From assembly GCA_002838185.1 (NCBI GenBank), contig CP017948.1:310001-374000 (forward strand): a stretch of DNA of 64,000 bases. The letters are read 5' to 3'. The stretch comes from Tenericutes bacterium MO-XQ. Its GTDB lineage: Bacteria > Bacillota_I > Bacilli_A > Acholeplasmatales > Acholeplasmataceae. The notes beneath the pieces were generated by a model, which was not told the DNA's origin, did not search any database, and saw only the letters and a list, made by a program, of their open reading frames with translations. This document shows positions 61,642 through 64,000 of the stretch, one piece after another; within the stretch, counting starts at the first letter, position 1, and each line of letters begins with the position of its first letter. Position numbers and translations under genes: made by a program.

Positions 61642-62601
61642 TTATGCATTTTCTATGATTGCAACCACTGGAATTAACAAGAATGCAATCCAAGAGATTT
61701 CAAATAACCCAAAGAAATGACCTAAACTGTAAAAGATAATGACTGCAATAAAAGGCATAAATGGTGTTAGTTTTCTTGGTTTATCATATAAGAAGATAGC
61801 TGTCATTGGGATCAATAAGAAAACCATCCATGAGTAAACCCACCCATCTGCGAAATATCCAAGTAAGAAGAATGTTGCAATTGCACCAACAATAACTAAA
61901 GTAAAGATTATTGCGTTTTTTCTCTTTAATGGATTTTTAACAACAAGCTCAAATTTCACTTCAGCATAATATAACATGACAACTAGTGGAAGTAAAAAGC
62001 CAAATGTACCAGTCATAAAATCATCTTGAGCATATCCCATATATAAATAGAATGCGATTGCGATTAAGATAGATGATATCATTAATGTTTTTTTAACAGC
62101 ATCTTTTTCATACACAAGTGCAGTAATTGGAATCATCAAAAAGATTAACCAAGCTGGATTCCAATAATTAGTATATGTGCCAACAAGAATAAATGTAATG
62201 ACAGCTACAAATGGGGATAATGCAACCACTTTCTCTTGTTTATCAGTACTTAAAATAATCGCAGTAATCGGAATAATCAAAAAGATTAGCCATGTTGGAT
62301 GCCAAATATCAGTTGACATACCAATAATCATAAACACTAAAACTGCAAAAAATGGAGATAACGCAATAAACTTATGTTTATATCTTTTAACTTGCTTCAT
62401 ATGTAATGTATCTATTAGTTCATGATAAACCTGGTTAGGATCACCTAATAAATTATATACATCATCATCTGATAAACCTCTTTCAAGGGCATCATCATAC
62501 ATGCTTTCATAATCACTTAAGACATCTTTGATATCTATTTCTAATACTTCGTGATTATGTAAAACCTCTCTTAATTCTTTTAAATAATTAGTTTTGTTCA
62601 T
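61642..62601 (-). CDS. HAAS-domain membrane protein with four tandem helix-pair repeats
   Basis: 319 residues. Residues 1-70 look like the HAAS/DUF1700 helical domain (NKTNYLKELREVLHNHEVLEIDIKDVLSDYESMYDDALERG in part), common in proteins paired with PadR regulators. The rest is membrane helices in four repeats with the cores WHPTWLIFLIIPITAI, WNPAWLIFLMIPITAL, VYSWMVFLLIPMTAI and EISWIAFLLIPVVAI. Overlaps padR by 14 bases. Function unknown; HAAS proteins are thought to sense or respond to envelope state. Confidence 0.75.
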   Translation of the reverse strand: MNKTNYLKELREVLHNHEVLEIDIKDVLSDYESMYDDALERGLSDDDVYNLLGDPNQVYHELIDTLHMKQVKRYKHKFIALSPFFAVLVFMIIGMSTDIWHPTWLIFLIIPITAIILSTDKQEKVVALSPFVAVITFILVGTYTNYWNPAWLIFLMIPITALVYEKDAVKKTLMISSILIAIAFYLYMGYAQDDFMTGTFGFLLPLVVMLYYAEVKFELVVKNPLKRKNAIIFTLVIVGAIATFFLLGYFADGWVYSWMVFLLIPMTAIFLYDKPRKLTPFMPFIAVIIFYSLGHFFGLFEISWIAFLLIPVVAIIENA

Positions 62602-62914
62602 TGAAATGACCTCCTACGATATTAAATACCCCTTCTAAAAATGATTTCCATTCATCTAAAGATTCATTTAATCTTTGTTTTCCTTGTTCTGTAATTTGAT
62701 AATATTTTCTAGGTGCTCCTAGACTTGTTTGTTTCTCATATGTTTTAAATAAATGTTGAGCTGTTAATCTTCTTAATATAGGATAGATTGTATTTTCATT
62801 AACATCGATGTCTTTTGCAAGTCTTTCGATGACTTCAAATCCATACATATCTTTTTCATCTATGACATATAAGATACACATTTCGAGTATGCCTTTTTTG
62901 AGTTGAGTGTTCAT
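62588..62914 (-). CDS. PadR-family transcriptional regulator
   Basis: 108 residues. Winged helix: KGILEMCILYVIDEKDMYGFEVIERLAKDIDVNENTIYPILRRL and SLGAPRKYYQITEQGKQRL, the PadR signature, followed by a short dimerisation helix (PadR-s1 subfamily). It heads a two-gene operon with the HAAS protein and should repress it through the boxes just upstream. Strong AAGGAGG ribosome site. Confidence 0.93.
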   Translation of the reverse strand: MNTQLKKGILEMCILYVIDEKDMYGFEVIERLAKDIDVNENTIYPILRRLTAQHLFKTYEKQTSLGAPRKYYQITEQGKQRLNESLDEWKSFLEGVFNIVGGHFNEQN

Positions 62915-62925
62915 AAAATCCTCCT

Positions 62926-62975
62926 TACTGTGTATTACACACTACTAATATATCACGGTACTGTGTAAAACACAA
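62926..62975 (-). promoter_or_regulatory. padR promoter with two 16-bp operator boxes
   Basis: Boxes TACTGTGTATTACACA (62926-62941) and TACTGTGTAAAACACA (62959-62974), 33 bp start to start, each containing a GTGT/ACAC dyad. Minus-strand promoter TTGTGT (62975-62970), 17 bases, TATATT (62952-62947). The upstream box covers -35; the other covers the start site. The arrangement suits autorepression. Confidence 0.65.
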
Positions 62976-63064
62976 TACCTAAAATACACTTTTTTTATTT
63001 TTTAAATCTTGTCTTTTTATTTTTATTATGATACTATACTAACAAATAGATGAGGTAGATATCT

Positions 63065-63115
63065 ATGAAAAATATGAAAAAGGCTGTTTATTACTATTAC
63101 GTATATTTGATATAA
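63065..63115 (+). CDS. Tyrosine-rich leader peptide
   Basis: 16-residue frame MKNMKKAVYYYYVYLI, stop TAA at 63113. It has a good ribosome site, GAGGT, 8 bases before the ATG. Five of the last eight residues are Tyr (codons TAT TAC TAT TAC ... TAT, 63089-63106). It lies 126 bases before a DAHP synthase gene. The layout matches amino-acid leader peptides such as those of pheA or his, where a stalled ribosome controls termination. Confidence 0.75.
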   Translation: MKNMKKAVYYYYVYLI

Positions 63116-63209
63116 GGACTGCTTTTTGTGGCATTCCTTTTTGACAATGTGAAGGAACAGCCAAATCATGATTAAACAATCATCCTTGGGGTTCCTCAGG
63201 GATTTTTTT
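63082..63209 (+). promoter_or_regulatory. Candidate tyrosine attenuator: competing hairpins and intrinsic terminator
   Basis: Terminator: 9-bp stem 63182-63190/63195-63203, loop GTTC, then seven T (63203-63209). The segment AAGGAACAGCC (63152-63162) can pair three ways: AACAGCC with GGCTGTT (63082-63088, directly before the Tyr codons), AAGGAA with TTCCTT (63134-63139), or AGGAAC with GTTCCT (63191-63196, inside the terminator). A ribosome stalled on the Tyr codons would cover GGCTGTT and so could favour the antiterminator pairing. The mechanism is inference; the pairings are read directly. Confidence 0.65.
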
Positions 63210-63240
63210 ATTTTTCAAGTATCCAAAAGGAGATAAGACT

Positions 63241-64000
63241 ATGATTATTAAAATGAAAAAGGATTCAACAAAAAAACAATACCAGAAATTGGCAGAGTTT
63301 TTAAAGAGTAAAAATTTAGAAATTAGAGATGTGAGTAGTGAGTTTGTCCATATATTTGGGATCATTGGAGATACATCCTCTTTTGAACCTGTAGACTTAT
63401 ATGCTTTTGAAGGAGTAGATGAAGTCACTAGGGTGTCAACACCGTTTAAAAAAGCATCGAGAAGTTTTAAAAAAGAAGATACCGTCATAAAGTTAGAACA
63501 CGGTATTGAAATCGGTAAAGATCAGTTTGTAATGATGTCTGGTCCTTGTTCAGTTGAATCATATGAGCAATTAAGAACGGTTGCTAAGGTCGTCAAACAA
63601 TCAGGAGCACACATTTTAAGAGGTGGTGCTTATAAACCTAGAACATCTCCATATGCTTTTCAAGGACTCGGAGAAGAAGGGTTACAAATATTAAGAAAAG
63701 TAGCTGACGAGTTTGAATTGTTGGTTGTTACTGAAATTCCAAGTTCTGATTTGCTTCCTTTATTTGAAAAATATGTAGATGTCATTCAAGTTGGTGCTAG
63801 AAACATGCAAAACTTTGAATTATTAAAAACTTTAGGTAAATCAACAAAACCGATTTTACTAAAAAGAGGATTATCCGCAACTGTTGAAGAATGGTTGATG
63901 AGTGCAGAATATATCATGAGTGGTGGAAATGAAGAAATCATCTTATGTGAAAGAGGTATTCGCACTTTTGAAAAATACACAAGAAATACACTTGATATAT
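63241..64000 (+). CDS. aroF: 3-deoxy-7-phosphoheptulonate (DAHP) synthase, 3' end outside window
   Basis: 253 residues visible, open to the window end. The N-terminal about 75 residues form a ferredoxin-like regulatory domain as in Thermotoga-type DAHP synthases; in that enzyme this domain gives feedback inhibition by Tyr and Phe. The barrel begins with [14 protein letters not shown] and has [41 protein letters not shown] and [11 protein letters not shown]. First step of the shikimate pathway: PEP plus erythrose 4-phosphate. Strong AAAAGGAG ribosome site. Controlled by the upstream leader. A shikimate pathway is itself notable in a mollicute. Confidence 0.93.

Follow-up and report, generated by a model that had tools for sequence, protein, structure and literature searches.

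The region in front of aroF in Tenericutes bacterium MO-XQ raises the question of which signal, read by which RNA device, decides whether a DAHP synthase operon is transcribed. The window, that is, the whole 64,000-nucleotide stretch analysed here, belongs to a 2.16-Mb Mollicute genome in the same family-level group (f1) as Acholeplasma laidlawii. It closes inside aroF (63241-64000; plus strand, as are all features below unless stated otherwise), which extends past its end. The operon order is aroF-tyrA-aroB-aroA, then aroE and aroC, with the names beyond tyrA taken from reading the translations; the second gene, tyrA, was assigned by domain search to prephenate dehydrogenase, on the Tyr branch. 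The initial annotation had placed a 16-residue Tyr-rich peptide, a ribosome site and a terminator between promoter and aroF, and all of these parts are present in the sequence.

The leader peptide gene (MKNMKKAVYYYYVYLI, 63065-63115) has 16 codons, from an ATG at 63065 to a TAA stop at 63113-63115. It contains the control codons TAT TAC TAT TAC GTA TAT (63089-63106), comprising four tandem Tyr codons (63089-63100) and one more (63104-63106), and is preceded, 8 nt 5' of the ATG, by the ribosome binding site GAGGT (63052-63056), for which a Shine-Dalgarno pairing energy of -6.9 kcal/mol was computed. The open reading frame, whose translation is predicted, would thus place a short run of Tyr codons before genes that make Tyr. 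By eye, a promoter-like sequence consists of TTGTCT (63009-63014), 17 nt, and TACTAT (63032-63037) with an extended TGA; this candidate (63009-63037) is not among the matches of a consensus promoter scan, and is backed by conservation of TRTGATACTAT across the loci of relatives. Downstream of the leader, a stem at 63182-63203 has nine pairs and a four-base loop, followed by a U run (ATCCTTGGG GTTC CTCAGGGAT plus U run), with 37 nt between its end and aroF. Of 200 shuffled versions of the leader RNA (63040-63215), 199 fold less well than the real sequence (z -3.07). An Rfam scan of the window and the relevant loci returned neither a T-box (RF00230) nor any other match at this element, a result that counts against a known riboswitch or T-box at this site.

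Several folds compete within this RNA. Segment 1 (GGCTGTT, 63082-63088) can pair with AACAGCC at 63156-63162; segment 2 (AAGGACTGC, 63114-63122), which overlaps the leader stop codon, can pair with segment 3 (GGCATTCCTT, 63130-63139), and segment 3 with either segment 2 or segment 4. Segment 4, the switch strand (GAAGGAACAGCC, 63151-63162), provides one half of the antiterminator with 63151-63158 and the partner of segment 1 with 63156-63162. Its antiterminator partner, GTTCCTC (63191-63197), covers the terminator loop and 3' arm, the pair being written GAAGGAAC/GTTCCTC. Segment 5 (63182-63190) is the 5' arm of the intrinsic terminator, and segment 6 (63195-63203) with the U run (63204-63209) makes up its 3' half (63195-63209). 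The set of pairings is therefore 1:4, 2:3, 3:4, segment 4 with the terminator (the antiterminator, ‘4:6’) and 5:6, and the switch strand has three mutually exclusive partners, GGCTGTT, GGCATTCCTT and GTTCCTC. The initial annotation had given three partners to 63152-63162; all three pairings hold, for 63151-63162, with the amendment that the partner in the terminator starts within the loop rather than being the 3' arm itself. Its claim of exclusive folds is confirmed, and its list lacked one hairpin that the switch needs, 63114-63122 with 63130-63139 (2:3).

We consider it highly probable that the aroF-tyrA-aroB-aroA... operon is controlled by ribosome-mediated transcription attenuation at this element, with charged tRNA-Tyr as the signal. 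When Tyr is scarce, the first ribosome would stall on the tandem Tyr codons, hiding segment 1 and exposing segment 2; the 2:3 hairpin would then form, leaving segment 4 free to pair with the GTTCCTC stretch of the terminator, whereupon RNA polymerase would read through. When Tyr is ample, the ribosome would reach the stop codon, which adjoins segment 2, and, parked there, would cover that segment, so that segments 3 and 4 would pair, the terminator would form and transcription would end before aroF. On an untranslated leader, the 1:4 pair would form and with it the terminator. Comparison between genomes supports the Tyr-rich leader, the terminator, the antiterminator and the 1:4 and 3:4 pairings as parts of this putative device; we infer the sequence of events, and that tRNA charging rather than free tyrosine is sensed.

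To place the element in its wider context, we compared aroF loci among relatives, 50 of 61 of which have the gene. Upstream regions were also taken from the named genomes of A. laidlawii (L061), A. oculi (L064), Izimaplasma (L062) and strain zrk7 (L079), and further loci came from the genus containing A. laidlawii and from another family, f16. The full layout, defined as a Tyr-rich leader, a hairpin with a U-rich 3' flank, a switch strand, a terminator and aroF, occurs at 45 loci with 44 distinct leaders, which span several genera and at least three family-level groups of Mollicutes. A. laidlawii itself carries the element (L061, L169); the aroF of genome G141 is identical across the 253 residues compared, and its leader region is the same as that of L061. 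Across 296 genomes of the class, a covariance model matched in 15, every one before aroF; 14 of these are aroF leaders already in the set, and the sole new match (G245, in another family) likewise lies before aroF, with a YYY leader. According to the initial annotation, its reading would fall if homologous loci lacked the Tyr codons or the terminator; in the sequence half of that test, both are kept before aroF in all 44 distinct leaders. The full layout is absent from the loci L028-L030 of family f3, and the other f16 members examined (L185-L190, L193-L195) have no such leader before aroF, the upstream gene there apparently running up to aroF.

Some loci depart from the common geometry. In L191 and L192, the switch strand reads CUACC and may pair with GGUAG in the 5' arm of the terminator instead of with the 3' arm, a possible third arrangement of pairings. 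In L168 and L177 (leaders MATLHTAYYYSIVTQRECYGRPFSS and MTLFNQTYYYPIVTQEECYGRPFST), the stop codon lies past segments 2 and 3; a finishing ribosome would there cover the switch strand, and the geometry may differ while the logic holds.

Because the genera differ in sequence yet keep the pairing, we compared duplex energies within each genome with those between genomes (own against cross; 17 genus-level groups, 50,000 permutations). None of the 50,000 permutations was as good as the real assignment for 1:4, none for the antiterminator 4:6 and 24 for 3:4, compared with a non-significant 20,337 for an upstream control region; as the groups are partly related to one another, these counts are not strict probabilities. 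In the antiterminator, 29 cells are changed on both sides, the covariation score exceeds all 500 shuffles, and slid versions all score lower; these compensatory changes argue for a predicted antiterminator that excludes the terminator. The terminator is retained in every leader locus although its sequence varies. For the 2:3 hairpin, the same test (24,207 of 50,000) gave no covariation support, because segment 3 is nearly invariant, with CATTCCTTTT identical in 28 of 28 sequences (alignment A1); this hairpin rests on conservation and folding. On a MAFFT alignment, counts for 3:4 and 5:6 showed no excess over shuffles, in part for the same reason, and RNAalifold recovered the terminator stem only partially, since no single consensus can accommodate folds that compete and segments that shift position; the own-against-cross duplex tests were therefore chosen. 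The 1:4 pairing is weak in L006-L008, and in the distant family f16 taken alone the pairing tests are only suggestive.

The effect of the ribosome was modelled in the first 28 sequences by masking its footprint and contrasting the ensemble restricted to the terminator fold with that restricted to the antiterminator. In all 28, a ribosome stalled at Tyr codon 1 or 2 shifts the balance towards the antiterminator when set against one at the stop position, with a mean gain of about 4 kcal/mol; measured against free RNA, a stall at the second Tyr codon has this effect in 26 of 28. In these models, ribosome position thus appears to shift the balance in the right direction. In most species, however, a stall still leaves the terminator with the lower free energy (mean about -4 kcal/mol), and kinetics must therefore account for part of the switching. 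In the window's own genus the stalled state ranges from near-parity to an antiterminator advantage (about -1 to +6 kcal/mol), and the antiterminator comes out ahead only in some members of that genus and in one relative. For the window sequence, a stall at the last Tyr codon brings the value back to -8.6.

Codon counts point to tyrosine as the signal, not PHENYLALANINE. At least two Tyr codons occur in all 44 distinct leaders and tandem Tyr codons in 42, the remaining two having Tyr at alternate positions. Tyr accounts for 172 of 615 residues (28%, against 6.1% expected from base composition; P about 1e-64) and, with one leader per lineage, for 49 of 190 (P 4e-18); both P values treat residues as independent though the leaders are kin, and so overstate certainty, the one-per-lineage figure being the fairer. 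TAT (101) and TAC (37) are freely interchanged, which indicates that the amino acid is kept and not a base string. Tyr does not rank with the most frequent residues in either alternative reading frame.

The main rival on the choice of amino acid comes from the literature. The element is very likely uORFC-13-1, matched here by its text description (RNA Biol 2021, PMC8632094), a motif reported from Acholeplasma and environmental sequences only, 24 in all and exclusively upstream of aroF, with a promoter, a ribosome site, a short ORF and an adjacent intrinsic terminator. Its aroF-only position, uORF and adjacent terminator recur at our A. laidlawii and A. oculi loci. From the U run, its authors suggest phenylalanine, such that a delay in adding Phe at a run of U-rich codons would control the terminator (PMC8632094). 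A Phe codon is indeed present in several leaders (A. laidlawii, MFINQAYYYFYQM), and the experimentally tested aroF leader of Corynebacterium glutamicum, AroR, answers to Phe, as summarised in PMC11802643. Against this, Phe is not enriched among the distinct leaders (7.2% vs 6.1%, P 0.16) whereas Tyr is, and many leaders, among them all of those in the window's genus, have no Phe at all. The U-run reading, an interpretation by those authors and not a sequence trait that defines the motif, therefore does not carry over to the present set; on codon counts we reject phenylalanine sensing, to which we attach a very small probability.

Two further readings accept the Tyr codons and differ on what they do. 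Free tyrosine could arrest the nascent peptide inside the ribosome, as tryptophan does with TnaC, instead of uncharged tRNA stalling it; arrest of this kind is known for other leaders (TnaC; PMC8429421). The RNA folds alone cannot separate such arrest from the sensing of tRNA charging. Arrest peptides, however, depend on fixed residues, and those flanking the Tyr run vary (AVYYYYVYLI, FSYYYYYQK, TYRYHNL, YYYPS); moreover, with the parts in this order, stalling by abundant tyrosine would switch a biosynthetic operon the wrong way, making arrest very unlikely. Alternatively, the leader might report general slowing of ribosomes, for instance by antibiotics or poor translation, with its Tyr content incidental. 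Modelled antitermination in the window sequence is in keeping with this, being about equal for any stall from codon 4 to codon 12, a plateau without a peak at Tyr that drops after the Tyr run. Yet nothing in the peptide is conserved apart from its Tyr codons, and tyrosine is a product of the operon, so we regard general slowing as highly improbable. In the model, structure determines where stalling would work, and the codons which amino acid would count. Sensing of charged tRNA-Tyr remains the preferred reading.

Under that reading, the position of segment 1 differs between lineages. In most genera it immediately precedes or overlaps the first Tyr codons (GGCUGUU; UUUUCCUAUUA in f5; GCCCUC in L183). 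In Acholeplasma, and judged by pairing also in L020, L022 and L024, its equivalent is found at the ribosome site or start of the leader, where a ribosome stalled at Tyr would not cover it. At the ribosome site, A. laidlawii pairs GGUCACAUU:AAUGUGACC, and the A. oculi counterpart, GGUAACAU:AUGUUACC, is a compensatory change relative to it; L024 pairs GGUUAC:GUAACC. Our guess is that 1:4 limits re-initiation of the leader in the Acholeplasma type. We tentatively propose, at somewhat below even confidence, a Tyr-specific attenuator with two architectures, in which the switch strand of Acholeplasma and some relatives would both shut off leader initiation and pick terminator or antiterminator, making the attenuator self-limiting.

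The initial annotation called Tyr leader attenuation of DAHP synthase unusual, a fair remark: the window's genome has 13 T-box matches, one of them upstream of tyrS, so that a single cell may have two kinds of RNA device that monitor tRNA-Tyr charging. A related family has a T-box before aroF itself. The aroF T-box belongs to genus g20 of family f3, where it lies directly before the gene (L040, 1007-1232; L053, 1808-2038, minus strand; L054, by eye), with a specifier that resembles UUC (Phe) in a by-eye reading. As to the enzyme, the regulatory domain noted earlier is there, in the form of the ferredoxin-like domain PF18152. The Thermotoga-type DAHP synthase also has a ferredoxin-like domain, and from this likeness the first step of the pathway is probably feedback-controlled as well.

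Two observations on the genome context stand apart from the switch. Between the tyrS T-box (L153, 3720-4500; G000:C1, about 1579219-1580000, minus strand) and tyrS, an apparent IS200/IS605-type transposase insertion was seen by eye, and may have broken or altered T-box control of tyrS. Divergent from the aroF leader, a minus-strand neighbour (62588-62914) resembles a PadR-type regulator by eye (region 62588-62981). The sequence before it, GTGTATTACACACTACTAATATATCACGGTACTGTGTAAAACACAATAC (62930s-62980), has repeated half-sites, with similar ones in the same place in several relatives, and these may be the operator of the PadR-like gene.

Among known systems, the element resembles the E. coli trp, pheA and pheST attenuators in its tandem control codons, mutually exclusive hairpins and intrinsic terminator, and differs from them in the amino acid. 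Its segment order (1:4, 2:3, 3:4, 4:6, 5:6) also differs from the 1:2, 2:3, 3:4 scheme of E. coli trp. T-box leaders likewise sense tRNA charging via antitermination, but they read uncharged tRNA directly, without a leader peptide. The aroR leader of C. glutamicum aroF, reportedly from Neshat et al. 2014, is close in being a leader-peptide attenuator of a DAHP synthase operon, in an actinobacterium. It has Phe-Tyr-Phe codons and answers to Phe, not Tyr (PMC11802643). The His-leader attenuators predicted for some Firmicutes (PMC9413887) share the leader-peptide principle and a Gram-positive lineage, and concern histidine genes in other taxa. In the openly accessible literature searched, we found no Tyr-responsive leader attenuator, and the name uORFC-13-1 in no other paper.

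The locus was thus very likely catalogued in 2021, with phenylalanine then the suspected signal; the passages on uORFC-13-1 give no antiterminator or switching scheme (PMC8632094). Compared with that description, the present analysis points to Tyr, to a spread over several genera from three or more family-level groups, and to competing folds. New here are the Tyr assignment, the proposed anatomy of the switch, its two putative architectures, the wider distribution and the contrast with T-boxes in the same genomes. A published orphan uORF motif would thereby gain a concrete amino-acid assignment, and tyrosine would join the amino acids sensed by leader-peptide attenuation. Ahead of the same gene, some families of Mollicutes appear to have a leader peptide and another has a T-box, and T-boxes serve other genes of these genomes; this clean evolutionary comparison bears on why bacteria choose one sensor of tRNA charging over another.
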